Below, piece after piece: positions 2,307 to 26,088 of a DNA stretch of 63,198 bases; position 1 is the first letter of the stretch; each line of letters starts with the position of its first letter. The translations under genes and the position numbers were made by a program. Below the pieces are notes generated by a model. It worked only from the letters and a program-made list of their open reading frames with translations, was not told the DNA's origin and made no database searches. The DNA comes from Bacillota bacterium (GTDB lineage: Bacteria; Bacillota; Desulfitobacteriia; Desulfitobacteriales; JAJXUE01). The stretch lies in NCBI GenBank assembly GCA_021783135.1, contig JAJXUE010000012.1, positions 1 through 63,198 of the forward strand, written 5' to 3'.

Positions 2307-2466
2307 TGGTACAGGGGAGGACACAGACGATTTAATTTCCATTGGCACGATCGGCTTAATTAAGGCGATAAATACTTATGACCCGGCTAAAGGTACCAAA
2401 CTTGCCACATATGCGGCCAGATGCATCGAAAACGAGGTGTTTATGACAAAAGGGGTGCTATGCTAA
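2224..2466 (+). CDS. sigK: sigK middle segment (sporulation sigma factor K, interrupted gene)
   Basis: The frame contains, from about 2279 to 2436, the region 2 core of sigma-[16 protein letters not shown], then [12 protein letters not shown], then [16 protein letters not shown]. It is cut on the left by element A (the first roughly 70 residues, up to RLVAH, are missing) and on the right by element B at codons CIENE; the ten residues after that are element DNA and end at a stop. It has no credible start of its own, since the ATG at 2224 lies inside recombinase coding sequence. It joins in frame to 25720-26088. The AARCIENE block and the downstream DPIG-DKEGNEI block identify SigK rather than SigE. 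Confidence 0.88.
2424..2436 (+). other. Left attachment core (attL) of element B
   Basis: CATCGAAAACGAG, identical to 25719-25731. It lies at the boundary where sigK coding similarity stops; downstream codons no longer encode sigma factor. The crossover is presumably within these 13 bp, most likely at a central dinucleotide as for other large serine recombinases. Confidence 0.88.
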
Positions 2467-2641: not shown

Positions 2642-2691
2642 GATAGGCCAGTTATTATAAGAAAAAATGATATGAAGGGATGTTATGTTAT

Positions 2692-2892
2692 ATGAAATCA
2701 ACAGCAATAACTAATTGGGATGAATTGCCAATAATGTTAACGCCAATTGAGGCAGCAAAAATTTTTCGATTCGACCCGTGTTATGTTCGCAAAATGTGTA
2801 AAGATGGTGAGTTACCGAACTTTCGGCAGGGGACCCGAATTCGCATTTCAAAAACTGCTGTTAGGAAGTATATCGAAAATTTGGGAAAGTAA
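2692..2892 (+). CDS. Excisionase-like helix-turn-helix protein
   Basis: A 66-aa protein with a MerR/excisionase-type winged helix: LTPIEAAKIF, then CYVRKMCKDGELPNFRQG, then RIRISKTAVRKYI. These small proteins bind DNA as recombination directionality factors or regulators. ATG 2692 is preferred over the in-frame ATG 2680 because the AAGGGA ribosome site (2675-2680) overlaps the latter. Lying about 250 bp inside the left attachment site makes it a candidate directionality factor for recombinase B, though large serine recombinases use varied partners and it could instead regulate the element. No catalytic residues are expected. Confidence 0.75.
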   Translation: MKSTAITNWDELPIMLTPIEAAKIFRFDPCYVRKMCKDGELPNFRQGTRIRISKTAVRKYIENLGK

Positions 2893-5642: not shown

Positions 5643-5835
5643 TGTTTGCGAGGTGTTTGCGAGGTGTTTGCGAGGTGTTTGCGAGGTGTTGCGAGGTGTT
5701 TTTGCGATCACCTCGCGCTAAAAAACGCATGGTTGAGCATTTTTAGCACCTCGCGAGGTGTTTTTAAAAATAGGTCAAAACACCTCGCAAAACACCTCGC
5801 AACACCTCGCAAAACACGCAAACACCTCGCAAAAG
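5643..5835. repeat. Iteron-like direct and inverted repeats (possible replication origin)
   Basis: The unit GCGAGGTGTTT recurs in direct orientation with an 11-bp period from 5648 (at least four perfect copies plus a shortened one). After a spacer holding GATCACCTCGC and a CACCTCGCGAGGTG palindrome, the complementary unit AACACCTCGC recurs four or more times to about 5830. One-helical-turn spacing next to a replication protein is characteristic of iteron origins. The inverted halves could also fold into a very large cruciform. Confidence 0.6.
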
Positions 5836-7935: not shown

Positions 7936-7975
7936 CATTTTTCGATAAATTATCAAAAAAAGAGGAGTGAAAAAA

Positions 7976-8863
7976 GTGAGAAAACTATTTTTAACGTTTC
8001 TAATTGCTACGGTCTTGCTTGTCACATCAATCGCCCCCGCGCTGGCGGCACCGAGGTACGATACGTGGATGGGGAGCACTTGGCCGCCCGTGGTGAGTGG
8101 GTGGCAGGTTGTTTCTAGCGATGGAAGTTCCACGCTTGATGTTAAATTCACTGATCCCCATGTAAATGGAGACGCAATCGGCCCCATCGCCGACCAGTCC
8201 TCCCAATACCCCGACTGGAACCAACCCAATAACATGGACATAATTTTGTACGCGCAAAATCACGGCTATCAACTGCCGATGGATTCGATATTTGGCCGTG
8301 CCAGTACCACTCCGGGGGTTTTTTATCCCGCAAACGATACCGCTGTTGCGACCTACACTCCCCAAATTTTGAGTATCATCGAAAAATCTGGATACACCCC
8401 GCAGGATTTCTTGAACGCAGGTGCAAATCCGTTGCCAAGTAAATCCGCGACGACCCCTAAACCAACACCGGCATCAGTAAAAACGGTTGTGGTTGCAACC
8501 CCTAAATCTGAGCCAACTAAAACTGTTGTGGCGACCACACCTGCCCCCGTAAAAAAAGTGAATGTAACTCCTGCAAAGGTCGTGGTAGTAACAAATGCTA
8601 CGGTGAGTTTAGCCGAAGCTAAGTCACACTCCGATGTACTAAAAGACCCGAAGTCACCTGCCAGCCAAGCCCTTGGTCGACTGCAAGATCAACAAAGCAA
8701 TATCTCCGACCAACAAGCGCAAGCCTATAACAATTGGCGGGATGAAAAAATAGCCATCTCTGCCGCAATCTGCATATTTTTATTTGTTTTATTTGTACTG
8801 ACTTACCTGATTCTGTATCGTCTTGATTGGCTCAAAAAAATCTTTAGAATCGGGAGGGGTTAG
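7976..8863 (+). CDS. Exported, membrane-anchored Pro/Thr-rich protein
   Basis: GTG 7976 is preferred over GTG 7967, which overlaps the GAGGAG site. The signal peptide RKLFLTFLIATVLLVTSIAPALA is cleaved after ALA. An extracellular domain follows (about 25-150, rich in W, D and P), then a low-complexity Thr/Lys/Pro/Val stalk (about 150-200, repeats of TVV and PKPTPA), a helical segment and a C-terminal transmembrane helix (AAICIFLFVLFVLTYLILY) with a basic tail. This is a surface protein displayed on a stalk. It is the first gene of a five- or six-gene operon; the next gene begins 2 bp after its stop. Function unknown. Confidence 0.7.
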   Translation: MRKLFLTFLIATVLLVTSIAPALAAPRYDTWMGSTWPPVVSGWQVVSSDGSSTLDVKFTDPHVNGDAIGPIADQSSQYPDWNQPNNMDIILYAQNHGYQLPMDSIFGRASTTPGVFYPANDTAVATYTPQILSIIEKSGYTPQDFLNAGANPLPSKSATTPKPTPASVKTVVVATPKSEPTKTVVATTPAPVKKVNVTPAKVVVVTNATVSLAEAKSHSDVLKDPKSPASQALGRLQDQQSNISDQQAQAYNNWRDEKIAISAAICIFLFVLFVLTYLILYRLDWLKKIFRIGRG

Positions 8864-8865
8864 CT

Positions 8866-11418
8866 TTGGCAAAACGATTAATAGCTTTTTTGGTCGCCAT
8901 AGCCACGTTGATTTACCCATCCATGGCTATGGCTGCCACTCAAAACACCAGTATCGTAACTTGGGGTAACGACTACCAACGCGGAGCTTCAGTGCAAGCT
9001 CAATCGTCGCTTGACCCGTGGACGATCCCAGTCGGTTCATCTTCCCCTGTTAGTTATGCCTCTGACCCTATCACAATTAATATTCCGAGCCTCGACGAGA
9101 CATATGCCCCTGACCCCGTAACGGGAGCGGTACTAAAACCCGGTGTTTTTACTTTTGGACAGTGGAGCTCGACTACGCCAATTTTTGCTGATGGCAAGAT
9201 GTGGCAATACACCTGGGATGACGGGGGGTGGGGTCACTTATGGGCTTATACGGTAAAAGCGAGTGATCTAACGCCGAACCATACATTTTCGCTGACTGGA
9301 GCGGATTTGGTACAAAGTTTTATGTGTGGCACAAACTCTAATACCAACTTCGCGGACGCACCAAGCGGAGTTTCTATCTCAAGTGACTCTGCCCATCCAT
9401 GGATGTCTGTCTCAGCTGGATCAAATTTGTACTGGTGGCCGACGGGGAACCCGTCAGCAATGCTATCGCAACCAATTCTTGGTCCGACCGACAATGATGT
9501 TTGCTCATCATCACCGTTAATCACGCCAAATAATTTTGATATGGTTGGCGATTTCAATGGTGGTTTTACGTCCATCAATCTTACAACAAGTATCCCGTTC
9601 CGCTCCGACGTTACCCATGCAGATTTCAACGTCAACGGTCAACCCAACCCTAACGATGCCGGTTCGTCTATCACCTCTTCTCCGGCGTGGAACCCTGTAT
9701 CGGGGACAGCTTGGTTTGGTGTCGCTTCGTATGCTGACCCACGGTTGATTTCATTTAATCCGGCGACAGATCAAACTTTTGTCACCGATAAAATTGCCGG
9801 TGGTCAAAAAATATATGATCCAGTGTGGTCGCCTACGCCGGTAGACCCGGTGAACGGTAATGTTTTTGCGACCGACATGGGCGGAAACGCCTACGAGTGG
9901 AATTCGAGCGGGACTCCTGTAGCGAAATGGATTACTTCTCAAGGCGATTTTAACCCGATCGATAATATGGCATTGGTGAGAGATTCAAGCGGGAGAGATC
10001 ACATTTCGTGGATCGATATGAATAATTATTTAGAGAACGCAATTGCCCCATCGGGGACACCGTGGACAGAATCATACAGTAAGTCATTGGGTGGATCGTT
10101 CACAGCTCAAGACCCTCAATTTGTCCTTGCTAAGAGCGGGGATTACATAGGCGAGGGGTTCGTTGATCCATTTGGGGGATTCATTGAGTATTCACTAAAT
10201 GCTGTACCGGCGAGTTCGACAACTCCACCGGAATGGGGACGAATTGACTTTGCCAATTTTGGCATTTTGGGATCAAGTGACAATTATTTAAATACAATAT
10301 TCGACATTAATTTAGGTAACACTTCAACTACGTCTAACGCCTGTTACACTTGGTCCAATAGTGCGGGAGATCAAAAACCAGGTATAGTTATTTTTTTAAT
10401 GTCCTCTCCATCGCTCGAATTAAAAGTGGAAGGCCCATATGGAAGCACCCCGGTTGTACCGTCGTCATCCCCACCTCAGCAGACGTATGGGATGACCGGC
10501 GAACAAAAATCACTTACGTTTTATGCGCCGGGTTTACAACCACTAAATCCCGGTACGTATACAGGGGCGTTTATAATCACCGGCTTTCCGGACGGCAGCT
10601 CAAAGACTATACCGATTGATCTCGATAACTCTGTGCCAGACCCGCTGGACAGCACCCAATCGGCGGCTACCAACAGCCAGGCGGCCATACTGACCTTACC
10701 CAATTCAACCTCAACTTACACTCTGAACATAACAGAGAAACTTTATAATAACGGAGTGGACACAGGTTTGGCATCACCAATTATTCAAATTTTTGTTGTC
10801 CCGACAATACCGAAATTTTCATCAACCGGTAATCTCACCTTAACATCCTTCCGCGACGGTAATATTAACAATTTAGGTCTCGATAAAGCCGGGAATGAAA
10901 ATATGATGACCGGAGAACCTTTACAAGCGAGATTCGGAGATACCATGCTGGCTGATTTGGTGGTTAGCGTACCGCCACCGCCAAGCGGTTATCAGTACAA
11001 TACTGCGGCCATGACAGCAAAAGTAATTTACCCTCAAGACGTGCCTAAGCCAACCGGCACGGGTACGGCGGGAAACAACCTGAACCATTACATGCGTACC
11101 GTTACACTTCAACCCAATACCCGTGCTGGCAGTAACAATAACAACGTTTCCATACTTGACCAGGTGGCACATTTCCCCGTTGAATGGCCTACGTGGAGAC
11201 CGCCCGTCGAAAAGGCTAACTGGACATGGGACGGTGAGCTGGAGTCTGATTGGACGGTCACGGGGAACTACAAGCAGTTTGTGGGAGGTAAGCACCCGCA
11301 TTGGAACTACTTACCGTTCACCTATGGCGGTACAACGTATTCGCAGGAGTGTCAAATTGTCTACACTGAAATATTTTATATGATACCAGGAAGCGCAAGG
11401 GAACCGTGGATGCGGTAA
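8866..11418 (+). CDS. Large secreted protein, possible beta-propeller
   Basis: 850 aa with a signal peptide (AKRLIAFLVAIATLIYPSMAMA). TTG start at 8866, with GGGAGGGG across the previous stop. The body is rich in W, G, N, S and T, with recurring blocks such as SSPAWNPVSGTAWFGVASYADPR and PVWSPTPVDPVNGNVFATD that resemble beta-propeller blades over about residues 60-480, then immunoglobulin-like beta-sandwich segments (about 540-770). No anchor or sortase motif is seen, so it is probably released or held by the neighbouring membrane proteins. No known family was recognised. A cargo gene of element B. Confidence 0.65.
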   Translation: MAKRLIAFLVAIATLIYPSMAMAATQNTSIVTWGNDYQRGASVQAQSSLDPWTIPVGSSSPVSYASDPITINIPSLDETYAPDPVTGAVLKPGVFTFGQWSSTTPIFADGKMWQYTWDDGGWGHLWAYTVKASDLTPNHTFSLTGADLVQSFMCGTNSNTNFADAPSGVSISSDSAHPWMSVSAGSNLYWWPTGNPSAMLSQPILGPTDNDVCSSSPLITPNNFDMVGDFNGGFTSINLTTSIPFRSDVTHADFNVNGQPNPNDAGSSITSSPAWNPVSGTAWFGVASYADPRLISFNPATDQTFVTDKIAGGQKIYDPVWSPTPVDPVNGNVFATDMGGNAYEWNSSGTPVAKWITSQGDFNPIDNMALVRDSSGRDHISWIDMNNYLENAIAPSGTPWTESYSKSLGGSFTAQDPQFVLAKSGDYIGEGFVDPFGGFIEYSLNAVPASSTTPPEWGRIDFANFGILGSSDNYLNTIFDINLGNTSTTSNACYTWSNSAGDQKPGIVIFLMSSPSLELKVEGPYGSTPVVPSSSPPQQTYGMTGEQKSLTFYAPGLQPLNPGTYTGAFIITGFPDGSSKTIPIDLDNSVPDPLDSTQSAATNSQAAILTLPNSTSTYTLNITEKLYNNGVDTGLASPIIQIFVVPTIPKFSSTGNLTLTSFRDGNINNLGLDKAGNENMMTGEPLQARFGDTMLADLVVSVPPPPSGYQYNTAAMTAKVIYPQDVPKPTGTGTAGNNLNHYMRTVTLQPNTRAGSNNNNVSILDQVAHFPVEWPTWRPPVEKANWTWDGELESDWTVTGNYKQFVGGKHPHWNYLPFTYGGTTYSQECQIVYTEIFYMIPGSAREPWMR

Positions 11419-11439
11419 AAAAAAAGGAATGTGGATGCG

Positions 11440-11892
11440 ATGAGAAAATTAATCAAAAACGAAAATGGCTTCGTCGGAATATACATCATGGGTATGATCC
11501 TGATTCTGGTAATTGCGACAATGGCGGTCTATTACGCGGTTGCCGGCGAAGCTTATGACATTCGCGAGTATGCGTTATCTCAAATTGAGCAAGCTGGTGA
11601 GTACACATTGTACGCAGACGCGGAATATGACTTAACTAACAACAAATTTGTCGTTTCAGCAAACACAGCAACTTTAGAGCAGACATTTGAAAGTCGGATA
11701 AATCTAAATCACTACACGATCACAAAGTTTCAAATTTTAGACAAGGGTGCCCCTGATCCGATGGGGTACCCTATGGCCCAACCGGGAATTTATGTACAAA
11801 TGAATTTACCAATGGCCGGGTATAACATTCCCGTGGGTGAGGAGATTGATTTACCGCCTTATAATTCCGAAACGAAAGTGTGGGTAAAGTGA
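11440..11892 (+). CDS. TadE/pilin-like membrane-anchored protein
   Basis: ATG 11440 fits the AAGGA site at 11424-11428 better than GTG 11431. A short cytoplasmic start ending NENGFVGIY leads into one transmembrane helix (IMGMILILVIATMAVYYAVAG) and an extracellular domain of about 115 residues. This resembles TadE/TadG-type pseudopilins, in which a hydrophobic N-terminal helix anchors an exported globular part, but there is no clear prepilin peptidase site. It sits between two secreted-protein genes and may help build or export the surface complex. Confidence 0.5.
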   Translation: MRKLIKNENGFVGIYIMGMILILVIATMAVYYAVAGEAYDIREYALSQIEQAGEYTLYADAEYDLTNNKFVVSANTATLEQTFESRINLNHYTITKFQILDKGAPDPMGYPMAQPGIYVQMNLPMAGYNIPVGEEIDLPPYNSETKVWVK

Positions 11893-11911
11893 AATGGAAG
11901 GAAGAAAAAGT

Positions 11912-12220
11912 ATGAAGAAGATAATTATTATATCGGTTGTATTTATTGTATTAATCGCAGTTGTGATTAGCGTCGGTCGGTCAGTTATCCATAAAAATAT
12001 TCAAAATGACTTGACACGGGCCGAGGCCACGACCAAAATGAACGATCCTAGCGGGTATGTACCATTTTATTCTAATCTCACCGAAAATGAATTTCTGCAC
12101 GATTACAATCCGCGAAAAGGTAAAATAACAAATTGGAAATTTACAAATGGCCAGATTTCTGCGACGATCGACTACCCGTTTTTTGGTAGCGTGACCGCAA
12201 CAATTGCCGGAAAAACGTGA
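11912..12220 (+). CDS. Small membrane-anchored hypothetical protein
   Basis: 102 aa from ATG 11912; GGAAGGAAG at about 11896-11904 makes this start better than ATG 11894. The N-terminal transmembrane helix (KKIIIISVVFIVLIAVVISVG) is followed by an external hydrophilic domain. Family unknown. It is tightly spaced after the pilin-like gene and 19 bp before the next start, so it is co-transcribed with the surface-protein operon. Confidence 0.55.
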   Translation: MKKIIIISVVFIVLIAVVISVGRSVIHKNIQNDLTRAEATTKMNDPSGYVPFYSNLTENEFLHDYNPRKGKITNWKFTNGQISATIDYPFFGSVTATIAGKT

Positions 12221-12239
12221 TTTTAAGGGAGGTTTCTCA

Positions 12240-12857
12240 ATGTATAAATTTATTGCCGAAGGTCAGCCATACGAGCAAAACATTTTGCTAATTGATTTGC
12301 AAACCGGTGATCACATCACAGCTGACAACCCGAGAGAAGCTGTAGCCGGATATCTGCGAAATCCAGATTACACAGATATCCAAGACGGTGGCGTAGCCGC
12401 TTACATTCGCCAAAAAATGGGACAAGACCTGCGCGACACAGCACCCCTCTCGTTCGGTCGAGTGTTCAAAGTTGAGATCGGCTTTTCGACCGACCGAGAG
12501 TTTCTCAAAGGGTTGGCTCTGAACGGTGTGATAGCCCTGTATGAACGCGATGGGTCGTACCGTGTACGGCCGGAGCCGCCGGGCTTGCCGCCTATTCACC
12601 AACATTGCTTGGAATGCGTTTTTAATGCAGGGAACGAGAAATGTAGCCAGTTCGAAGTTTGGAGTGATTCTGACGGTATCAGTTGTATGGGCTTTGCTCG
12701 GCCTGATTTGCCGGCGACTGATGTGACCGAATCCGGTAATCCGGCATTTTTACTGATTGATTTTGGGCATCCAGAAATTACGGACCCCGACTACTGGCAG
12801 CCAGCAAGTCAGGAAGAATTGGATCAAGCGATGGCAGATAGGCCGGAGGACGATTAA
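12240..12857 (+). CDS. Hypothetical protein with Cys cluster
   Basis: 205 aa from ATG 12240, placed by AAGGGAGG at 12225-12232. A soluble protein without signal peptide. The central HQHCLEC and KCSQF residues and a later Cys before MGF suggest a small metal-binding site (about residues 120-150). The C-terminus is acidic (EELDQAMADRPEDD). No family is recognised. It follows the membrane protein closely and may be the cytoplasmic member of the operon. Confidence 0.55.
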   Translation: MYKFIAEGQPYEQNILLIDLQTGDHITADNPREAVAGYLRNPDYTDIQDGGVAAYIRQKMGQDLRDTAPLSFGRVFKVEIGFSTDREFLKGLALNGVIALYERDGSYRVRPEPPGLPPIHQHCLECVFNAGNEKCSQFEVWSDSDGISCMGFARPDLPATDVTESGNPAFLLIDFGHPEITDPDYWQPASQEELDQAMADRPEDD

Positions 12858-12889
12858 CTTCAACTCAAGTGCTGGAGGTATAAACAAAA

Positions 12890-13552
12890 ATGACAGATTT
12901 CGTTATTGACCCGCACGACCCACGACTTGACTGCTACAAAACCGAAACGAGCGCACAGATTGAACTGCTCGACAAAATCAAAGCTAAACTAGCCTCAACC
13001 TGCAACCAAATAAAAATTATTGTTGGTGACGTTGAGGCCATCATACTCGATCTCAATTTCGACACTGAACTATTCAGTCTTTATGTTATTTGCACAACCA
13101 AAATTGGGACTGTAAAATTGTTCGATTTTCACAGGTTCTCAATTTCATCCGAAACACAAAATGATAAAATCATATACAAAATACTTAACTTTAACACAGT
13201 TGAAGTATTGGCCGAAATAATACTGCCCTTCGCAACAAACTCGTTTGAATTGGATCAGCGGATTGCTAAACGAATTGCCGTGCTTAAACAAAAAATTAAA
13301 GAACATGGTCAGGTTACGAAAGTTGTTATTCTTGACAACGAACAGGTTTATACTGTTGCCACCGTGAACTTTGACCCCAAATTAAAAATACTGGCGATTT
13401 CCACCACCACCGGAGAATCGTTTCAATTTATCGCCTTTGGTCTTGACACAAACAAAAACGAGAATAATGACGTCCAAGAGTATATCCGTGATTTGGGCAC
13501 GGTTAAATTGTTGGCCACTCTCGTTTTTGAAGGCCAAAAACACTTCTTTTAA
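12890..13552 (+). CDS. Hypothetical protein with internal duplication
   Basis: 220 aa starting at ATG 12890 with a GGAGG site. Two related halves are visible: KIIVGDVEAIILDLNFDTELFSLYVI with TVKLFDF, and TKVVILDNEQVYTVATVNFDPKLKILAI with SFQFIAF. The shared V-x-D-x-E...FD-x-x-L pattern implies a duplicated beta-rich domain. No signal peptide; family unknown. Last gene of the cargo operon, followed by a repeat-rich intergenic region. Confidence 0.55.
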   Translation: MTDFVIDPHDPRLDCYKTETSAQIELLDKIKAKLASTCNQIKIIVGDVEAIILDLNFDTELFSLYVICTTKIGTVKLFDFHRFSISSETQNDKIIYKILNFNTVEVLAEIILPFATNSFELDQRIAKRIAVLKQKIKEHGQVTKVVILDNEQVYTVATVNFDPKLKILAISTTTGESFQFIAFGLDTNKNENNDVQEYIRDLGTVKLLATLVFEGQKHFF

Positions 13553-13718: not shown

Positions 13719-13845
13719 CACAATTCAGCAGTTTAAAAGCCGAGATGTAACAGCAGTTAAACTGCTGAATTGTAAAGTCCGTTTAACTGACGAGTTGTAA
13801 CAACAGTTTAACTGCTGAATTATCTCAACAGTTAAACTGTTGAGA
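13719..13845. repeat. Cluster of CAGTTAAACTG palindromes
   Basis: CAGCAGTT-A-AACTGCTG (13751-13767), CAACAGTTTAACTGCTG (13801-13817) and TCTCAACAGTT-A-AACTGTTGAGA (13823-13845), plus half sites near 13726 and 13551. Their location directly upstream of a ribbon-helix-helix gene suggests operators for that protein, or iterons. Confidence 0.55.
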
Positions 13846-13857
13846 TATAACGACAAT

Positions 13858-13888
13858 CGCAGATGCCACAAGGGTTTGCGGTTTTTTT
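13858..13888 (+). terminator. Terminator-like hairpin just before the ribbon-helix-helix gene
   Basis: CGCAGATGCC and GGGTTTGCG form an imperfect stem followed by seven T residues, 15 bp before the next start. It either ends upstream transcripts or attenuates the downstream gene. Confidence 0.5.
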
Positions 13889-14803: not shown

Positions 14804-14831
14804 TTGACAACATTGCTATTTAGTTTAGAAT
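14804..14831 (+). promoter_or_regulatory. tracrRNA promoter
   Basis: TTGACA (14804-14809) and TAGAAT (14826-14831) with 16-bp spacing. The predicted start site at about 14838 coincides with the first base of the anti-repeat. Confidence 0.75.
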
Positions 14832-14837
14832 TATATT

Positions 14838-14928
14838 TGCATACTATATCAAGGTTTGAGCAGGTTGCTGTAATAAGGCAACATGCCGTGGAGCTCTAAG
14901 CCGGTCATTTTGACCGGCTTATCTCTTT
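14838..14928 (+). ncRNA. tracrRNA of the type II-C CRISPR system
   Basis: The anti-repeat GCATACTATATCAAGGTTTG (14839-14858) matches the plus-strand array repeat at 18 of 20 positions, and CTGTAAT (14868-14874) matches the repeat end after a small bulge. A nexus-like stem (GGCAACATGCC) and a terminal hairpin AAGCCGGTCA / TGACCGGCTT (14898-14920) with a U-rich tail follow. It would pair with crRNAs transcribed from the opposite strand of the array and bind Cas9. It lies just upstream of cas9 on the same strand, behind a consensus promoter. Confidence 0.88.
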
Positions 14929-15014
14929 ATCTAAAGAATTCTCTATAATATATTGAATTAAGTTGGCAATAAATATACAATAATGTAAAATAGTGCATTT
15001 TGGGGGAGTGGCGT

Positions 15015-18000
15015 ATGGGGTATCGAATAGGACTTGATGTTGGGATAGCGTCGGTCGGTTGGTCAACAGTCGAAACTCTTGATGGTCAGGCTAGTCGAAT
15101 CAGAAATTTAGGTGTAAGAATTTTTGATAAACCCGAAAACCCTAAAGATGGTGCCTCATTAGCACTTCCACGGAGAGAAAAAAGGTCGATGCGCAGGCGA
15201 CTTAGACGGCATAGATTTCGTATAGAACGAATTAAACATTTAATTGAAAGAGCCGGCTTACTTACATTAGAAGAAATCGGAAAAATGTATTTACAAACTG
15301 AAATGCAGCCTGATGTATATGCTTTACGAACAGAAGCCTTGTCTCGCCGTCTTACTAACGAAGAATTTGTTAGGGTATTAATTCATATTGCTCAAAGACG
15401 GGGCTATAAGTCAAACCGTAAATCTGAAGAAACAAACACAAAATCCGATGAGGGAAAAATTTTAGTAGCGGTCAACCAGAATGAGATCCTGATGAAAGAG
15501 AAAGGCTACCGAACCGTAGGTGAAATGCTTTATTTAGATGATCGCTTTAAAAAAACCAAACGAAACAAAGCCGAAGATTACAGCCACACACTACCACGTA
15601 ATCTTGTTGAGCAGGAAATTACTCTCATATTTGAAGCGCAAAAGAAGCATGGGAATCAATATGTGAATGAAGATATTGAAACAAAATATCTCAATATCGT
15701 TACATCTCAACGCAGTTTTGATAGTGGTCCAGGGGGAAATAGTCCATACGCAGGTAATCAGATTGAGAAAATGCTTGGTACATGCACCTTTGAACCAAAT
15801 GAAAAGCGAGCGGTTAAAGCCTCTTATAGTTTTGAACGCTTTATGCTTTTAACCAAAGTTAACAATCTGCGAATAAGAAAAACGGGTGGAGTATCACGAC
15901 GCTTAACTTTACAGGAGCGCACCCTAATCATTGACGAGGCTTATAGAAAAGACGATTTTAAATACAGCTCACTGCGAAAACTTATGAACCTATCATCTAC
16001 TGAAACTTTTGGTGGGCTTACCTACGGGAGAAAAACAGTTGAAGATGTTGAAAAAACTGTATTCGTTAAGTTAAAAGCCTTTCATCAGATACGCAAAGCT
16101 CTGAATAAAATCGAAGAAGGATATATTGCAAAGCTAAGCACAAATCAACTTGATGAGATCGGGTACGCACTAACCGTGTTTAAAAATGACAGGAAAATAA
16201 TGGAATACCTAAAGAACAACGGATTGGACGAAGAATCTATCGAACGTTTACTTCTTATTTCATTTTCTGGCACCGGGCACCTGTCAATTAAAGCTATCCG
16301 TAAATTAATTAACTTTCTTGAGAGTGGGATGGATTATGATAAGGCATGTGCGGCAGCCGGATATGACTTTAAAGGGCAAATTAGTAAAAAAACTTTTAAA
16401 CTCCCCCCGATGAATTTTGAAAATATTACGAATCCTGTGGTTAAAAGAGCACTTTCACAAGCGATAAAGGTAGTAAATGCTATTATCGAAGTCAACGGAA
16501 GTCCGGAAGGAATCAATGTAGAATTGGCCCGAGAAATGTCAAAAACGTTTAAGGAACGAAAAGAACTTGAAAAGGGAAACATGGAAAATAATGAACATAA
16601 CGAACGCATCAAAACACGCCTTACTAGGGAGTTCGGTTTAATTTCTCCCAAAGGCAATGACATTGTTAAGCTTAAACTCTATGAGGAACAGGATGGTTAT
16701 TGTCTTTATTCCGGACAAAAAATGAATATTCGCCGCTTGTTTGAGGATGGTTACGCTGACGTAGACCACGTAATTCCGTATAGTATGTCATTCAATGACA
16801 GTTACAATAACAAGGTGCTTGTTTTATCCAAAGAAAACCGACAAAAGGGTAATAGGTTGCCTTGGGAATACTTAACAGATACACCTTCAAGGCTCGATGT
16901 TTTTGTTAGTCTTGTTCAATCTTTAAAATTGAATTACAACAAGAGCCAAAACTTATTAAAGAAGTCTTTTAGCAGAGAAGAAGTGGATGAGTTTAAAGAA
17001 AGAAATCTAAATGACACCCGGTACATTACTCGCCACCTTGCGGAACATATCCGAAATAGCTTGATTTTTGATGATAGTTGCAATTTAGGGATAAAAAAAG
17101 TTACATGCCTTAACGGTCCGGTAACCTCATATATGCGTAAACGTTGGGGTTTATCAAAAGTTAGAGAAAACGGCGACCTACACCATGCTCTTGACGCAGT
17201 TGTTATAGCCTGCGTGGATGATAATATGATTCAAAAGATTAGCCAGTACCATAAACATAAAGAACAACAGTTTATGGGTAAGGCTTTTATTGTTGATCGT
17301 GAAACTGGGGAAATGATCGACCGTAAAGAATATGACCGTAGGTTTTTATTAAGTAATACTGACCGTTTCCCCGAGCCATGGTCTAAATTCAGAAAGGAAT
17401 TGGAAGCCCGACTTTCAAATGCCCCAATGGAGGCTATAGCAAGTTTAAGGTTGCTCACATACCCTGATTATGAGCAGGTTCTACCTGTTTTTGTGTCCAG
17501 AGCACCGCGGAGAAAAAGCAAAGGTCAGGGACATTTAGAAACGGTTTATAGTCCTAAATTAGCTGATCAAGGATTGATAATAAAGAAAATACCCCTTACA
17601 GATATCAAGTTTAAAGATGGTGAAATTGAGAACTATTTTATGAGGGAAAGTGACCTACTGTTATATAAAGCTTTGTGTGCCCGCCTTGTACAATATCATG
17701 GAGATGCGAAAAAAGCTTTTACTGAGCCGTTCTTTAAGCCCAAATCAGATGGTAGTAATGGACATTTGGTAAAAAAAATAAAAGTATTGGAAAAAAGCAA
17801 CCTAGGGGTTTTTATCCATAATAAAGATGGATATGCAGCTAATGGCAATATGGTTCGCATTGATGTCTTTACGAGAAATGGTAAGTTTTGTTTTGTGCCT
17901 ATCTATTCTTCCGATACGGTAAAGTCTTATTTGCCAAATAAGGCCGTAGTTGCAAATAAACCTTACGATCAATGGATTCAGATTGACAATACCTGTATTT

Positions 18001-18296
18001 TTAAATTTAGCTTATATCCAAATGATTTAATAAAATTTGAGCATAAAACTGGTATCCCTGTAGCTTTGAGTAATGGCTCTAAAAAAATTATAACAAATGA
18101 ATTTGTTTATTTTCGTAAAGCAAGTATTTCGTCAGGTTCCATTACGGTGATAAGTCATGATAATTCTTTTGAAATACCTAGTTTAGGTATTGCCACACTC
18201 CTAAGTTTAGAAAAATGGCTGGTAGACTATTTAGGTAATCTAACAAGTGTCAAAAAAGAAAAACGAATGGATTACACTGATAGAAAAAGTGGGTGA
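15015..18296 (+). CDS. cas9: CRISPR-associated endonuclease Cas9 (type II-C)
   Basis: RNA-guided DNA endonuclease, 1093 aa from ATG 15015 (GGGGGAG 7 bp upstream; TTG 15000 is less likely). RuvC-I is GLDVGIASVGW (Asp8); the Arg-rich bridge helix KRSMRRRLRRHR lies at about 61-72; RuvC-II ELAREMS has Glu503; the HNH domain DVDHVIPYS has His585; RuvC-III HHALDAVV has His723 and Asp727. All catalytic residues are present, so it should cut both strands. The length and the absence of csn2 or cas4 indicate II-C. Its stop overlaps the start region of cas1. It lies between tracrRNA and cas1-cas2 inside the sigK element. Confidence 0.97.
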   Translation: MGYRIGLDVGIASVGWSTVETLDGQASRIRNLGVRIFDKPENPKDGASLALPRREKRSMRRRLRRHRFRIERIKHLIERAGLLTLEEIGKMYLQTEMQPDVYALRTEALSRRLTNEEFVRVLIHIAQRRGYKSNRKSEETNTKSDEGKILVAVNQNEILMKEKGYRTVGEMLYLDDRFKKTKRNKAEDYSHTLPRNLVEQEITLIFEAQKKHGNQYVNEDIETKYLNIVTSQRSFDSGPGGNSPYAGNQIEKMLGTCTFEPNEKRAVKASYSFERFMLLTKVNNLRIRKTGGVSRRLTLQERTLIIDEAYRKDDFKYSSLRKLMNLSSTETFGGLTYGRKTVEDVEKTVFVKLKAFHQIRKALNKIEEGYIAKLSTNQLDEIGYALTVFKNDRKIMEYLKNNGLDEESIERLLLISFSGTGHLSIKAIRKLINFLESGMDYDKACAAAGYDFKGQISKKTFKLPPMNFENITNPVVKRALSQAIKVVNAIIEVNGSPEGINVELAREMSKTFKERKELEKGNMENNEHNERIKTRLTREFGLISPKGNDIVKLKLYEEQDGYCLYSGQKMNIRRLFEDGYADVDHVIPYSMSFNDSYNNKVLVLSKENRQKGNRLPWEYLTDTPSRLDVFVSLVQSLKLNYNKSQNLLKKSFSREEVDEFKERNLNDTRYITRHLAEHIRNSLIFDDSCNLGIKKVTCLNGPVTSYMRKRWGLSKVRENGDLHHALDAVVIACVDDNMIQKISQYHKHKEQQFMGKAFIVDRETGEMIDRKEYDRRFLLSNTDRFPEPWSKFRKELEARLSNAPMEAIASLRLLTYPDYEQVLPVFVSRAPRRKSKGQGHLETVYSPKLADQGLIIKKIPLTDIKFKDGEIENYFMRESDLLLYKALCARLVQYHGDAKKAFTEPFFKPKSDGSNGHLVKKIKVLEKSNLGVFIHNKDGYAANGNMVRIDVFTRNGKFCFVPIYSSDTVKSYLPNKAVVANKPYDQWIQIDNTCIFKFSLYPNDLIKFEHKTGIPVALSNGSKKIITNEFVYFRKASISSGSITVISHDNSFEIPSLGIATLLSLEKWLVDYLGNLTSVKKEKRMDYTDRKSG

Positions 18297-18301
18297 CTGC
18301 T

Positions 18302-19186
18302 ATGGCATATCGGCATGTATGTATAGCAAATAGGGCGTTTATTTCATTACGCAATAAACAACTTGTTATTAAACAAGACGAGGAATATACTATCCCGCTT
18401 TCTGATATTTCTACAGTAATGCTAGAAAACAATGCCTCAACAATCACTTCCGCGGCGATCGCAGCTATGGCCGAAAATAATATAGCGTTGTTTACATGCA
18501 GTGAACAACATACTCCAAATGGTGTTTTGATTCCTTTTAACAACCATTCCCGGCAGCTTAAAGCACTTAAAATACAGCTCGAAGCCAGTAAACCACTGGT
18601 TAAACGAATATGGCAAAAGATTGTTAAACAAAAAATATTAAATCAAGCTAAGTGTATCCAAAATTGCGATATTCAAGGCTGGGAAAGACTGTTTCAATTG
18701 AGCAACAAAGTGGAATCGGGAGACAAAAATAATATTGAAAGTCAAGTTGCAAGGGTGTATTTTCGATTACTTTTTGGACCAAATTTTATCAGGCGAACTG
18801 AAACAACATTAAACGCCAGTCTTAATTATGGGTACTCTTTAATAAGAGCTGCAATAGCACGTAGTTTAACGACTTATGGGTTTTATCCAAGTATTGGGTT
18901 ATTTCACCATAATGAATTAAATAACTTTAACCTTGCGGATGATCTAATTGAACCCTACAGACCGTTAGTAGACAAATGGGTGTACGACAATGTGGGAAAA
19001 GATGAGACCATTTTAACTACAGAACATAAAAGAGGGTTATATAATTTGTTTAACACTCAGTTAACTATCAACAACGGAGTATCAACTCTAACAACAGCAA
19101 TTGAAATCACTTCAGCGAGTCTTGTCACCGCATTATCAATAAATGATCGCGAGGCACTAAAGCTTCCTCAATTGTTTTCCTGTTAG
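18302..19186 (+). CDS. cas1: CRISPR adaptation protein Cas1
   Basis: 294 aa from ATG 18302, with GTGGGTGA just upstream; the GTG at 18293 overlaps the cas9 stop. It is the metal-dependent integrase that inserts new spacers together with Cas2. Typical features: the N-terminal beta domain (HVCIANRAFISLRNKQLVI), E-x-x-x-ARVYFRLLFG, LNYGYSLIRAAIARSLTTYG and the His-containing GLFHHNELNNFNLADDLIEP block. It is full length for type II Cas1. Translationally coupled with cas9 and cas2. Confidence 0.96.
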   Translation: MAYRHVCIANRAFISLRNKQLVIKQDEEYTIPLSDISTVMLENNASTITSAAIAAMAENNIALFTCSEQHTPNGVLIPFNNHSRQLKALKIQLEASKPLVKRIWQKIVKQKILNQAKCIQNCDIQGWERLFQLSNKVESGDKNNIESQVARVYFRLLFGPNFIRRTETTLNASLNYGYSLIRAAIARSLTTYGFYPSIGLFHHNELNNFNLADDLIEPYRPLVDKWVYDNVGKDETILTTEHKRGLYNLFNTQLTINNGVSTLTTAIEITSASLVTALSINDREALKLPQLFSC

Positions 19187-19200
19187 GAGTGTGGAAAGCG

Positions 19201-19521
19201 GTGATTAGGTTTATGAGATTGCTCATATTCTTTGATTTGCCGGTCAAAACAAAAACTGACCGGAAAACCGCCACTAACTTTCGTAAATTTCTTATTAAGG
19301 ACGGTTTTTATATGGTTCAATATTCGGTTTATTGCAGAATATGTAATGGTCATGACTCTGTAGTAAACCATGAGAAGATTGTATCTGCAAATCTCCCTAA
19401 AAGCGGTTCCGTGAGGACCCTTATTGTAACCGAAAATCAATATGAAAACATGAGGTTGCTAGTAGGTAAAGAAAAACCCAATGACAGGAAGTTTGTTGAG
19501 GGTCAACTATCGCTTTTTTAA
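19201..19521 (+). CDS. cas2: CRISPR adaptation protein Cas2
   Basis: 106 aa from GTG 19201 (TTAGGAG at 19183-19189 is 11 bp away; GTG 19189 overlaps that site). The MRLLIFFDLPVKTKTD opening and FRKFLIKDGFYMVQYSVYCR are the ferredoxin-like core of type II Cas2, which forms the Cas1-Cas2 integrase complex. Final residues EGQLSLF resemble the C-terminus that docks on Cas1. It is followed by a terminator-like hairpin and then the array. Confidence 0.93.
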   Translation: MIRFMRLLIFFDLPVKTKTDRKTATNFRKFLIKDGFYMVQYSVYCRICNGHDSVVNHEKIVSANLPKSGSVRTLIVTENQYENMRLLVGKEKPNDRKFVEGQLSLF

Positions 19522-19576
19522 AAAACGAATAACTATCGGTAGAAAACTGAATATTTTTCATTATTTTTGGATTGTA

Positions 19577-19610
19577 AAAAGCCTTATAGAACAGTATCTA
19601 TAAGGCTTTT
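19577..19610 (+). terminator. Terminator hairpin between cas2 and the CRISPR array
   Basis: AAAAGCCTTATAG and CTATAAGGCTTTT form a 13-bp perfect stem with an 8-base loop. The flanking A- and T-runs allow termination from either side: of the cas operon (plus) and of the array (minus). Confidence 0.8.
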
Positions 19611-19620
19611 CAGCTAGCGT

Positions 19621-22081
19621 AGCATACCATATCAAGATTTGTCAGGGAACTGTAACTATATCTAAAGATGTAGAATCTGATTTTGAAGCATACCATATCA
19701 AGATTTGTCAGGGAACTGTAACTAAGCGCAGAGCCACCATTATTAATTCTAGAGCATACCATATCAAGATTTGTCAGGGAACTGTAACGGTAGTAATCGT
19801 CACTATCATCCGTCAGGTAGCATACCATATCAAGATTTGTCAGGGAACTGTAACGTAGGATTTGAGCAATTCAACCCGATAAAGAGCATACCATATCAAG
19901 ATTTGTCAGGGAACTGTAACTGTCCGTTCACCGTCAAATACACCCCCCTTAGCATACCATATCAAGATTTGTCAGGGAACTGTAACTCGACGTTAGACAT
20001 TGTTCGAAGCCACCGCAGCATACCATATCAAGATTTGTCAGGGAACTGTAACTATCAAGGACAGCAGAATTTGCTTGAAAAAAGCATACCATATCAAGAT
20101 TTGTCAGGGAACTGTAACCCTCTATCCGAATGTAATAAAGCAGACAAAAGCATACCATATCAAGATTTGTCAGGGAACTGTAACACTCTTTGAGCGGTGC
20201 CAAGTACCAGCGAAAGCATACCATATCAAGATTTGTCAGGGAACTGTAACTATGAGAATTGAACGCCCTGAGTTTTTAACAGCATACCATATCAAGATTT
20301 GTCAGGGAACTGTAACCCTCGTTGCAAAGCGCATCTATCCTCTTGTAGCATACCATATCAAGATTTGTCAGGGAACTGTAACTATACGGCTGAAGTTAAT
20401 GCAATACATCCCAGCATACCATATCAAGATTTGTCAGGGAACTGTAACTCAACAATATTATTGGAGATAGTTGCGCCTAGCATACCATATCAAGATTTGT
20501 CAGGGAACTGTAACTACCGTGTACTCGTAGGTGTCTGAGCCGTCAGCATACCATATCAAGATTTGTCAGGGAACTGTAACAGCGACTAATCGTCCCTCAA
20601 CCCCGCTTATAGCATACCATATCAAGATTTGTCAGGGAACTGTAACCCTTGGTTTGCGGTGGCTTAACAACCGTAGCATACCATATCAAGATTTGTCAGG
20701 GAACTGTAACAAAAAGAGCGGTATCGGTATGTGATGGCGTAGCATACCATATCAAGATTTGTCAGGGAACTGTAACTCATTACTATATAAGTATAAAACA
20801 ATGTTCAAGCATACCATATCAAGATTTGTCAGGGAACTGTAACCTACTAAGTGAGCTACTTTTTCCAACCTTAAGCATACCATATCAAGATTTGTCAGGG
20901 AACTGTAACATAAAGTCTGCATACGCGACCTTTTCTACGAGCATACCATATCAAGATTTGTCAGGGAACTGTAACGCAAACGGCGGTACGTGCATACTGT
21001 GGTTAAGCATACCATATCAAGATTTGTCAGGGAACTGTAACCATATCCTTCATCTTGTCGGCAATAACCTTAGCATACCATATCAAGATTTGTCAGGGAA
21101 CTGTAACGTTGTTGTGTCTGCCCTTGACTGGCTAAAGAGCATACCATATCAAGATTTGTCAGGGAACTGTAACCATTATCCTCGGGCAGATTTTGCTGGC
21201 AAGAGCATACCATATCAAGATTTGTCAGGGAACTGTAACAGTCCTGCTGCTCTCCTGCTGTTAGACTCAAGCATACCATATCAAGATTTGTCAGGGAACT
21301 GTAACCAGCGGCAAGAGCTGCCTTTCGTTGCCCTTAGCATACCATATCAAGATTTGTCAGGGAACTGTAACTTGCGAGGCGGGGACGTTTCCGTTGCTAT
21401 CAGCATACCATATCAAGATTTGTCAGGGAACTGTAACATATTCGACCAGTGCGTCATAGCGCTCGGGAGCATACCATATCAAGATTTGTCAGGGAACTGT
21501 AACCGCAGCTTGTATTACCTCGACTAACTTTTTAGCATACCATATCAAGATTTGTCAGGGAACTGTAACCACCGGTGGAAGCTACTTGCAGCTTACGTGA
21601 GCATACCATATCAAGATTTGTCAGGGAACTGTAACTCTAAGTTTCGCTCTCATTTTTCGCCTCCAAGCATACCATATCAAGATTTGTCAGGGAACTGTAA
21701 CAAAGAGAGCGAGCTTAAACGGCTTGAGTGCAGCATACCATATCAAGATTTGTCAGGGAACTGTAACCAGGATATTTTAAACCATCTTCACCAGTAGAGC
21801 ATACCATATCAAGATTTGTCAGGGAACTGTAACCGAATTTCGCTCACGCATTTGTTCCTCCGAAGCATACCATATCAAGATTTGTCAGGGAACTGTAACG
21901 GAGTTATGTGTGTCATAGTTGCTGTGAGAAGCATACCATATCAAGATTTGTCAGGGAACTGTAACTAGGTTTTAGACATGTGGTATTCACTTCCTAGCAT
22001 ACCATATCAAAATTTGTCAGGGAACTGTAACTTCGAGCAGGCTATCTATATCGAGCGTGATAGCACACCATATCAAAATTG
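19621..22081 (-). CRISPR. Type II-C CRISPR array, 37 repeats plus one degenerate repeat
   Basis: The 36-bp repeat reads AGCATACCATATCAAG on the plus strand and ends GGGAACTGTAAC. Repeats start at 19621 and then every 66 bp, with two exceptions: the spacer before 20675 is 28 bp and the one before 20808 is 31 bp. All other spacers are 30 bp and all look unique. The copy at 21996 has one G-to-A change, and the last (22062) is degenerate after about 19 bases. crRNAs are expected from the minus strand, because the tracrRNA anti-repeat equals the plus-strand repeat. The minus-strand repeat ends TGGTATGCT, an extended -10-like box, as in other II-C arrays with a promoter in each repeat. Confidence 0.97.
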
Positions 22082-22197: not shown

Positions 22198-22524
22198 TTA
22201 TAAAATAAGAATCAGTGAAAGAAAACGAAACTTTAAAACATGAACAAGGGCGTACATTAAACTTAATTTAGCACAAAATTCAACTGGAGATATTTTCAAT
22301 TGCCTCAATATGTTCTGTAAAGTGCCCCGTGGTATACTTTTACACGCCAACTTAATAACGGCAGTGTGGGTTTTATTACCGATTTTTCTAGTCCATACTT
22401 GATGGCTACGTACAGCGTCTCTAATAGATGGTTCTGCGCCTAGCCTTTTTAAATCTCGGATAAGTTTCTTGGTTTGAATGTCGGAAGGCAAGGCATGAGG
22501 GGTGCCTTTTTTGCTAGAAGGCAT
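22198..22524 (-). CDS. hicA: HicA-like toxin (mRNA interferase)
   Basis: 108 aa. KKLIRDLKRLGAE opens the small dsRNA-binding-like fold, and IPRGTLQNILRQLKISPVEF matches the end of the HicA family; the active-site His region may be SHQVWTRKIGNKTH. HicA toxins cleave mRNA and are neutralised by HicB. The C-terminus is longer and more hydrophobic than usual (about 25 extra residues, SLMYALVHVLKFRFLSLILIL), perhaps a changed or frameshifted end. It overlaps the HicB gene by 11 bp. Likely a stability module for element B. Confidence 0.7.
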   Translation of the reverse strand: MPSSKKGTPHALPSDIQTKKLIRDLKRLGAEPSIRDAVRSHQVWTRKIGNKTHTAVIKLACKSIPRGTLQNILRQLKISPVEFCAKLSLMYALVHVLKFRFLSLILIL

Positions 22525-22852
22525 ACTGTGGTTTTAAGACCACTCGATCCCCGCAGATAGAATCACCCATAATACGATCCGGCCTAAGACGCTCATGATG
22601 ATCTGATGATGACTTACTGATCTTTTTCATGTAATGCTTCATTATATCTCGGGGGACGAGGCGAGGAACTAATTCATCATACCTACCGGAAGCCGATGCG
22701 TAATCTAGGTAAGCACTAATAGCGTCTTTCATGCTTTCAATCGTTTCCTCAAGGGTTCCTCCACATGTGGCAACATCTAAATCTAAACATAAAGCGGAAA
22801 ACATAGAGCCGTCTTTTTCAATTACACAACGTAACTCAAGATCGCGTTCCAT
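22514..22852 (-). CDS. hicB: HicB-like antitoxin
   Basis: 112 aa from ATG 22852 (AAGGCGG overlaps the GTG at 22861). The partial RNase H-like HicB fold is clear: LRCVIEKDGSMFSALCLDLDVATCGGTLEETIESMKDAISAYL. The C-terminal 35 residues probably wrap the toxin; no evident DNA-binding domain is present. HicB upstream of HicA with overlapping frames is a common order in this family. No second copy is visible in the window. Confidence 0.8.
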   Translation of the reverse strand: MERDLELRCVIEKDGSMFSALCLDLDVATCGGTLEETIESMKDAISAYLDYASASGRYDELVPRLVPRDIMKHYMKKISKSSSDHHERLRPDRIMGDSICGDRVVLKPQYAF

Positions 22853-23067
22853 CAGAATCACCGCCTTTTGCTGATATTTTACTCATAGTTTTGACAAATA
22901 TGCCTTGCAATAAAATAATAGCATGACTGCCAAAATTATCCTAACTTTAATCCGTGCAATTTTCTTACATTATGGCACGTTTTTCTTCATTTTTGTTAAA
23001 AATATATCAACTTTAACAGTTTTCCTAAAAAAACACATAAAACAAATAAAAGGTGCTAGTTGGTGCC

Positions 23068-24028: not shown

Positions 24029-24109
24029 ATATCCCAATGGCAAGCCGTCCTTTCATAGATTGTATGGGGGTGGTCAGTATGAACGTAAAATTTATCAAAG
24101 GTGAATGTT

Positions 24110-24138
24110 ATGACAAAAGCATAGCTCTTTGTTATAAT
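24110..24138 (+). promoter_or_regulatory. Putative promoter of recombinase B
   Basis: ATGACA (24110-24115) and TATAAT (24133-24138) with a 17-bp spacer, 50 bp upstream of the recombinase start. This is a vegetative sigma-A pattern. A mother-cell promoter would be expected from the skin model; none was convincingly recognised. Confidence 0.45.
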
Positions 24139-24187
24139 TACATTAGGGAACAAGCCCTGAAAGAAGAACAAAAAAAGGTGAAAAAGG

Positions 24188-25705
24188 ATGCCAATAATAG
24201 GAATATATACAAGAGTGAGCACCGAGGAGCAAGCTAAACACGGTTTCAGCCTAGAACACCAATTAAGAGAATGTAAAAGGGTGGCTAGCAAGGATTTTAG
24301 TGGGCAAGATATCGAGTTTCTTGAATACACTGATGATGGTTATAGTGGTGAGTACCTAGAACGCCCGAATTTGACAAAGTTAAGACAGGACTTTAAAAAT
24401 GGAATGGTGGATCATGTTTTTTGTTACGATTTAGATCGTCTTGCAAGAAATCTGGTCCATCAACTTATATTAGACGCGGAGTTTTCTAAAAAAGGTCTCT
24501 CATTTGTCGTTGGGGATTACCAAAACACGCCGGAAGGAAAGATGTTTTTTCAAATGAGAGGCGCAATCGCCGAGTTTGAAAAGGCCAAAATTAACGAACG
24601 AATGTCGAACGGACGGAAAACTAAAGCATTGAAAGGTCAAGTGGTCAAAAATTATCACGTCTTTGGTTATGAATTTGATAAGGTCTTGAATCAGATGGTT
24701 ATAAACGAATCAGAGGCTGAGATTGTTCGATTTATATTTGACGCTTTCACGGGCAAGCAGAACGGGTTTAAAGGAATAAACGGTATCGCAAAACATCTTA
24801 CTGAGCAAGGTATCCCAACAAAAAAGGGAAATGTGACTTGGCATAGGCAGGTAGTCAGGCAAATACTGATGAGCAAAACCTACATCGGGGAATTCTATCA
24901 AAATCGGTGGGATTCCCGTGGGTCGTTAGGCCGCCGATTCGGCCAGGAATTTCATGTATCTATAAGACCACCGGAGGAATGGATTCGCGTGGAGTGCCCG
25001 GTAATAATCGAAAAGAGCCAATTCGAGTATGCTCAAAAGTTACTTGGGGTCTCCAGGCAGCGGTGGGCCGGAACATCGAAAAATCAATACCTGTTGTCTG
25101 GTTTAGTTAGGTGTATGCGCTGCGGTAACACAATGGCGGGTCGTAACGCCAAAAACTGGGGTACATATATTTTTGAATACACAGACGTGAAAAATACGGC
25201 CGGGGCTAAAAACCACGGGTGCGGGGCGCGGGTTAAATGCTCTGTTCTCGATGAGATCGTGTGGAACCGGGTTCTCGACGAGATCAGAAATGCAAATAAT
25301 CCAATCGACGATAATTATAATTCCACGGATATAGAAAAACGGATTTTTCAGGAAAGGGAACGGATAGAAAAAGCTATTGAAAAAAAAGAAATAGCTAGAA
25401 AACAATTCATTAAGTCTGTAGTCTCGGGGCATATGGTAGGAATAAGTCAAGACGAGATTAATGGGGCACTTATGGAGAGCAATAGAGAAATAGAGACACT
25501 GAAAGGACAATTAGCCGAGACACTCAATAACCAAGCCCAACGTGAATTACAAGGAACACGACGAGACAGGATACGAGAGGCTATGGCTAGGTATATTGGA
25601 AGACCAACAGATGACTTCGGGTTTGAAGATAAAAAACACTTGATTCGGTTATTGATCCGTGAAATTAGGTATGACAGTGATAATATAGAAATATCCACTT
25701 TTTAA
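24188..25705 (+). CDS. spoIVCA: Large serine recombinase of element B (SpoIVCA-like)
   Basis: 505 aa. The catalytic domain starts IGIYTRVST (nucleophile Ser11), followed by LDRLARNL and YQNTPEGKMFFQMRGAIAEFEKAKI, a signature of SpoIVCA-type recombinases. Then come the recombinase domain (about 160-280), a zinc ribbon (CMRCG near 313 with a later CGARVKC) and a coiled coil (about 375-450). ATG 24188 has a purine-rich leader. The stop is 14 bp from the right attachment core, the usual place for an element's own integrase. It should catalyse excision of element B and rebuild sigK. The symbol reflects the family role, not proven orthology. Confidence 0.93.
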   Translation: MPIIGIYTRVSTEEQAKHGFSLEHQLRECKRVASKDFSGQDIEFLEYTDDGYSGEYLERPNLTKLRQDFKNGMVDHVFCYDLDRLARNLVHQLILDAEFSKKGLSFVVGDYQNTPEGKMFFQMRGAIAEFEKAKINERMSNGRKTKALKGQVVKNYHVFGYEFDKVLNQMVINESEAEIVRFIFDAFTGKQNGFKGINGIAKHLTEQGIPTKKGNVTWHRQVVRQILMSKTYIGEFYQNRWDSRGSLGRRFGQEFHVSIRPPEEWIRVECPVIIEKSQFEYAQKLLGVSRQRWAGTSKNQYLLSGLVRCMRCGNTMAGRNAKNWGTYIFEYTDVKNTAGAKNHGCGARVKCSVLDEIVWNRVLDEIRNANNPIDDNYNSTDIEKRIFQERERIEKAIEKKEIARKQFIKSVVSGHMVGISQDEINGALMESNREIETLKGQLAETLNNQAQRELQGTRRDRIREAMARYIGRPTDDFGFEDKKHLIRLLIREIRYDSDNIEISTF

Positions 25706-25718
25706 CGCACACCTTTGA

Positions 25719-25731
25719 CATCGAAAACGAG
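25719..25731 (+). other. Right attachment core (attR) of element B
   Basis: CATCGAAAACGAG, identical to 2424-2436 and in the same sigK reading frame (IENE). sigK sequence resumes directly after it with ILMHLR. Confidence 0.88.
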
Positions 25732-26088
25732 ATCCTGATGCATTTGCGGACCTTAAAGAAAAGCCGGGGAGAGGTTTACATTTATGACCCAATAGGGGTG
25801 GACAAGGAAGGTAACGAAATAACCTTAATTGACGTCCTTGGCACCGAGGCTGACGCGGTATCTGACACCGTAGAAAGCTTCTTTGAGCAAAAACACCTGA
25901 GGGAAAAAGTAAACCGCCTGCCCAAACGGGAACGGTTGGTTTTAGAACTGCGCTACGGGATATCACGGGAAAACCGTAGCACCCAGCGGGAGATTGCCAG
26001 GAAGCTGGGGATTTCGCGTTCTTATGTATCTAGGATTGAGAAACGGGCGATTCAGAAGCTGTTTGAGGATATGAAAGATGAACAGTAG
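25720..26088 (+). CDS. sigK: sigK 3' segment (sigma-K regions 2.4-4)
   Basis: The frame reads IENEILMHLRTLKKSRGEV, then DPIGVDKEGNEITLIDVL, then region 4 with RLPKRERLVLELRYG and the DNA-binding helix-turn-helix TQREIARKLGISRSYVSRIEKRA. It lacks region 1.2-2.3 and a true start; the ATG at 25738 would give only an inert fragment. Fused to 2279-2436 it forms a normal sigma-K from region 2 onward. Mother-cell RNA polymerase needs SigK for late coat and cortex genes, so this locus must rearrange, or another sigK copy must exist, for sporulation to finish. Confidence 0.92.
   Translation: MENEILMHLRTLKKSRGEVYIYDPIGVDKEGNEITLIDVLGTEADAVSDTVESFFEQKHLREKVNRLPKRERLVLELRYGISRENRSTQREIARKLGISRSYVSRIEKRAIQKLFEDMKDEQ

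Follow-up and report, generated by a model that had tools for sequence, protein, structure and literature searches.

Can a complete bacterial immune system be carried by an element that is cut out of a gene during sporulation? The question is raised by a stretch of DNA (the window) that makes up an entire contig, C40, of 63,198 bases in a genome of 2.71 Mb. An earlier note on this DNA had described a complete type II-C CRISPR-Cas9 locus between two attachment cores, carried as a passenger by an element that interrupts sigK and has an integrase of its own. Since the CRISPR locus and both cores lie on one contig, no assembly join is involved. The anatomy, the cores, the three-exon splice of sigK, the recombinase family, its recombination directionality factor (RDF) and the CRISPR parts were all read from the sequence. 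We consider it highly probable that this is a SpoIVCA/Skr-type skin element with a complete II-C cargo, which would be excised in the mother cell and whose CRISPR locus would be retained by the spore.

Two elements in sigK

The features that border the breaks in sigK are as follows.

660..2306, + strand: rec1, large serine recombinase of element 1 (Resolvase, Recombinase and Zn-ribbon Pfam domains); its last codons lie within the sigK fragment
2299..2436, + strand: sigK exon 2 (KFDGTGED...RCIENE), open; TIGR02846 positions 60-116; in frame between exons 1 and 3
2424..2436, + strand: attL core of element 2, CATCGAAAACGAG; exact match to 25719-25731
24079..24237, + strand: gene for a Skr-like recombination directionality factor; overlaps the start of rec2 in another frame
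24188..25705, + strand: rec2, SpoIVCA-family large serine recombinase of element 2, identified by Pfam domains; adjoins attR
25719..25731, + strand: attR core of element 2, CATCGAAAACGAG
25732..26088, + strand: sigK exon 3 (ILMHLR...KDEQ, stop); TIGR02846 positions 109-226

The 13-mer core occurs in the window in these two exact copies and no more. Element 2 spans 2437-25731 (23.3 kb) and interrupts sigK at the ENE codons, near residue 136. Exon 1 lies outside the window, on contig C59 (39939-40205), and has its own breakpoint, different from that between exons 2 and 3. Spliced in frame, exons 1, 2 and 3 give a 253-aa SigK that scores 329 bits against the curated cut-off of 298.65, a value that no unspliced piece attains.

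The break at residue ~89 belongs to element 1, with rec1 opposite exon 1 across it. This element is split across contigs (660-2306 of the window, and C59:39939-41494, locus L046) and is incomplete in the assembly. The earlier note's interruption of sigK by an element therefore holds for element 2, but its picture of a single element does not, given element 1 at residue ~89. Because element 1 breaks the gene there, sigK would be back in frame only if both elements were removed. The part of element 1 at the end of C59 carries a gyrA-like gene, which is a third copy; two full-length gyrA-family genes are present besides. A chromosomal rearrangement next to a housekeeping gyrA was considered as an account of element 1 and is not favoured, the gyrA-like gene there being that third copy.

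The generality of this arrangement was assessed in 80 named loci with SpoIVCA-like recombinases, mostly from Bacillales, obtained by a profile-guided scan. Their recombinases are 41-54% identical to rec2, and in 65 of the 80 loci sigK is broken within 10 kb, at about residue 135-137. Homologues of rec1 (48-54% identity) were found at the same sigK break as in element 1 (~residue 86-89) in four loci, L134 (a complete genome), L137, L145 and L174, all of which also have a rec2-type recombinase at the ~136 site. As judged from these sequences, the rec1-type and rec2-type families are each tied to their own site in sigK, for the two sites tested. A further break, at about residue 167, was seen in 14 loci of the set. 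The gene is in three or four pieces (breaks near 89, 136 and 167) in several Bacilli, among them L130, L132, L134, L137, L144, L145, L174 and L180. Given the double breaks of rec1 and rec2 type and the breaks at residue 167, the multiply split sigK is thus a recurrent state; no publication describing it was found in the literature searched. With sigK broken by two element families, double excision in a set order within a single gene can be tested directly.

The excision unit and contents of element 2

The RDF gene of Bacillus subtilis, skr, lies across the start of spoIVCA and is read in a different frame (PMC6957869). Among the 80 loci, 79 have an ORF that overlaps the recombinase gene in the corresponding frame, as against 3 in a control frame. 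A profile (HMM) made from these relatives alone and then run on the ORFs of the window matched a single one, at 24079-24237 (E = 1.2e-13; the runner-up scored 0.057). The earlier note's anatomy had lacked this gene. With a recombinase of this family, a Skr-like RDF and both cores, the excision unit is complete in sequence. By recombinase family, RDF and insertion site, element 2 is classed with the Bacillus skin elements of SpoIVCA/Skr type, which bears out the earlier view of CRISPR-Cas as a passenger of an integrase-bearing element within sigK.

A 37-kb 'plasmid' of Alkalihalophilus pseudofirmus (NZ_CP144225.1, locus L116) encodes phage structural proteins together with a recombinase that shares 47% identity with rec2; this molecule is probably a phage, or a phage-plasmid, whose integrase is SpoIVCA-like. 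No attP cores were found beside the SpoIVCA-like integrases of the Alkalihalophilus circular phage or of an Alicyclobacillus phage.

Could the element and sigK be relics, decayed together in a lineage past sporulation or excision, with the CRISPR locus stranded in a dead gene? The double interruption of sigK would fit such a history, as would an excision predicted from homology and a promoter scan in which the best sigma-E site upstream of skr had a score indistinguishable from those of shuffled sequences. The state of the genes speaks against it. Compared with its intact counterpart in the nearest relative (G001), sigK differs at 56, 31 and 142 first, second and third codon positions, respectively, a strong third-position bias that is alike in each exon. 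All three exons are open, and these two properties together indicate that sigK has been maintained rather than decayed. The recombinase, the Skr-like gene and the cores are intact, and SigE and SigF are present, intact and above their cut-offs. We therefore regard decay as very unlikely, and return to a functional skin element as the preferred reading.

The CRISPR-Cas9 locus comprises the following parts.

14837..14925, + strand: tracrRNA, with anti-repeat and terminator hairpin; forms a duplex with the crRNA repeat
15000..18296, + strand: cas9, type II-C, likely ATG at 15015; TIGR01865, 834 bits against a cut-off of 100
18293..19186, + strand: cas1, type II (NMENI); TIGR03639, 303.9 bits
19189..19521, + strand: cas2; TIGR01573, 79.8 bits
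19621..22085, - strand (crRNA strand): CRISPR array, with 37 full repeats, a truncated 38th and 36 full-length spacers

For the anti-repeat at 14837, the duplex with the crRNA repeat has an energy of -44.1 kcal/mol, compared with -15.1 +/- 3.1 in shuffles. A G+C-rich hairpin comes after the anti-repeat, and a TTGACA/TAGAAT promoter lies upstream. Both the RuvC and the HNH catalytic motifs of Cas9 are intact and can be aligned with those of three homologues. No fourth cas gene lies between cas2 and the array, so that the order is cas9-cas1-cas2 without csn2 or cas4. The 36-nt repeats number 37 full copies at 19621-22031, in agreement with the count given earlier; 36 are perfect and the last has one mismatch, and the truncated 38th follows at 22062. 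Repeat decay is thus leader-distal, at the right end of the array, far from cas2. The spacers are all unique and mostly of 30 nt. The crRNA strand is the minus strand, because the plus-strand tracrRNA contains the repeat sequence as printed. Read on the crRNA strand, TGGTATGCT closes each repeat, and we take it to be an extended -10 such as other II-C arrays are known to have. To judge from its parts (tracrRNA, cas9 with its catalytic motifs, cas1, cas2 and array), the locus between the two cores is a complete type II-C system, as the earlier note had it.

The remainder of element 2 includes the following genes.

2680..2892, + strand: small HTH_17 DNA-binding protein (PF12728, 3.4e-11); adjoins attL
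3003..5615, + strand: primase/helicase-like replication protein (PHROG DNA polymerase/primase, 2.4e-18)
7967..13552, + strand: operon for secreted or membrane proteins (298, 850, 153, 108, 217 and 220 aa), putative cargo or transfer functions
22198..22861, - strand: HicA toxin gene and upstream partner (PF07927, 2.6e-06, barely above the cut-off)

Small HTH proteins are thus among the products of element 2. Homologues of the primase-like protein occur in 24 further genomes from the phylum. The translations of the 7967-13552 operon show signal peptides and a C-terminal membrane helix, with no Pfam matches and only weak PHROG matches, and no relatives of the 850-aa secreted protein were found in plasmids or viral contigs. 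No phage structural genes were recognisable among the larger ORFs of element 2 that were tested. The partner of hicA, beside the CRISPR array, has the size and position of HicB and a translational overlap, with no Pfam match; the two are a possible element-stabilising toxin-antitoxin pair. Short tandem and inverted repeats occur at 5643-5830 (TGTTTGCGAGG units) and 13757-13860 (TTTAACTGCTGAATTGT units), and are possibly iterons or origin sequences. In the chromosomal flank, a c-di-GMP-I riboswitch was detected at 55160-55297 (+ strand, 65.9 bits).

Origin and targets of the CRISPR-Cas9 system

A search of the organism's own genome with Cas1 gave one match, that inside element 2, and the CRISPR-Cas system of this element is the sole one detected in the genome. 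Its Cas9 is absent from the other 73 genomes of the order and 82 of the class; the same locus fixed in the chromosomes of relatives, which would have spoken against the earlier proposal, was accordingly not encountered. In most relatives sigK is uninterrupted. The best match to rec2 within the order (52%) comes from a genome in which sigK is split at the same site, without cas9.

Relatives of Cas9 were obtained from a search of the phylum and from tblastn against plasmids and phages; single-protein Cas9 scans of genome contigs and viral contigs gave no match. The nearest Cas9 (61%) belongs to another family and lies in an ordinary chromosomal ribosomal-protein neighbourhood, so the CRISPR locus has no history as skin cargo elsewhere. 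The cas genes have a G+C content of 36-37%, compared with about 47-50% across most of the right flank. Within 10 kb of the 80 recombinase loci, no homologues of cas9, cas1 or cas2 were detected in a search whose queries were the window proteins and nine other Cas9s. Apparent arrays in L132, L180, L183 and L188 proved not to be CRISPR, being collagen-like or other tandem coding repeats. On these sequences, the simplest reading would be horizontal capture of the II-C locus by the skin element.

Such a capture may have been a chance pick-up of an ordinary host CRISPR locus, to which its place in a skin element would make no difference, the mother cell dying and the spore keeping everything. We give this reading even chances. 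It does not conflict with the anatomy, and it agrees with the chromosomal setting of the nearest relative's locus, with excision in a terminal cell and with the 80 loci, where the lack of cas9, cas1 and cas2 homologues within 10 kb leaves no sign of a recurrent association of CRISPR with skin elements. It takes no account of the element's integrase, a transfer route that a fixed chromosomal locus lacks.

The spacers were examined for targets. None of the 36 has a match in phages, plasmids or the 74 genomes of the order, host included, and there is accordingly no self-targeting spacer; four spacers had no exact match in IMG/VR. No PAM was inferred, because no protospacers were found, and for the same reason the function of the CRISPR system is predicted from its intact parts only.

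These results also bear on the suggestion that the CRISPR-Cas9 system serves the element itself, excluding competing mobile elements and giving the host a reason to keep it, with excision incidental. This suggestion is compatible with the main proposal and differs from it on the purpose of CRISPR. In its favour, the element carries the system, no other was detected in the genome, and a precedent exists in the Cas9 of CampyICE1, with its anti-plasmid spacers (PMC8743540). The lack of any match among the 36 spacers tells against it, as does the continued presence of element 1 in the same gene, no spacer matching its assembled parts. We hold the suggestion only tentatively, with the balance somewhat against it.

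Known systems and developmental meaning

The skin element of B. subtilis, with SpoIVCA and Skr (PMC6957869), resembles element 2 in its insertion in sigK, in the large serine recombinase at its right end and in the small RDF gene that overlaps the recombinase gene in another frame. Its excision restores sigK, and excision of element 2 would do so together with that of element 1. Unlike element 2, which carries a primase-like gene, secreted proteins and a complete CRISPR-Cas9 system, the B. subtilis element is a defective prophage without CRISPR; moreover, a second intervening element is present in sigK here.

In Clostridioides difficile, skinCd (PMC5025042, PMC6563280, PMC5154133) is likewise a sigK-intervening element with a serine recombinase and an RDF, and carries a CRISPR array (CRISPR 6). 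The passages on this array list it beside a toxin-antitoxin pair and report no cas genes, in contrast to the full set of adaptation and interference genes in element 2. The site-specific recombination (SSR) unit and attB of skinCd are unlike those of the Bacillus type (PMC6957869).

CampyICE1 (PMC8743540) is, like element 2, an integrative mobile element that carries CRISPR arrays and a Cas9 of type II-C. It is conjugative and has cas9 without cas1 and cas2, together with its anti-plasmid spacers, whereas element 2 is of the developmental kind and has both cas1 and cas2. The gin element of Bacillus cereus (PMC5595907) is, like element 2, a non-phage intervening element in a mother-cell gene, with defence cargo; its target is gerE rather than sigK, and it has three recombinases and restriction-modification but no CRISPR.

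Earlier reports describe CRISPR arrays in C. difficile skin (PMC6563280, PMC5154133), cas9 in CampyICE1 (PMC8743540) and, as cargo of gin, restriction-modification (PMC5595907). No complete CRISPR-Cas9 system with adaptation genes on a sporulation-excised or skin element was found in the literature searched. What is new here is a complete, adaptation-competent CRISPR-Cas9 system as skin cargo, arrays on skin elements and cas9 on integrative elements being known before.

From homology we infer that element 2 is excised in the sporulating mother cell, and the timing of excision is likewise a prediction; CRISPR activity is predicted from the intact parts. In vegetative cells and in the forespore, element 2 would stay put and supply cas9, cas1, cas2, the tracrRNA and the array. 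During sporulation, Skr and rec2 would recombine attL with attR in the mother cell, releasing element 2 as a circle and joining exons 2 and 3, and the second large serine recombinase would remove element 1 at residue ~89 to leave an intact sigK. The CRISPR locus would thereby leave the mother-cell chromosome, perhaps to remain on the circle until lysis, and would be inherited by the spore.

The tie between CRISPR and sporulation appears, on the arrangement of the genes, to be one of physical linkage only. That the mother cell would lose CRISPR is a good inference; it may count for little functionally, given that this cell is terminal and that the locus is kept in the spore. A stronger version would be immunity confined to the germline, in which a developmental element captured a whole adaptive system that is present in growing cells and the spore and deleted from the mother-cell chromosome, CRISPR and the excision unit travelling together and offering the host two reasons to retain the element. 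This version we consider possible but doubtful. If the main proposal is true, the sole adaptive immune system detected in this bacterium would sit in DNA whose departure from the somatic (mother-cell) chromosome is programmed, and CRISPR-Cas9 could spread with a site-specific integrase.
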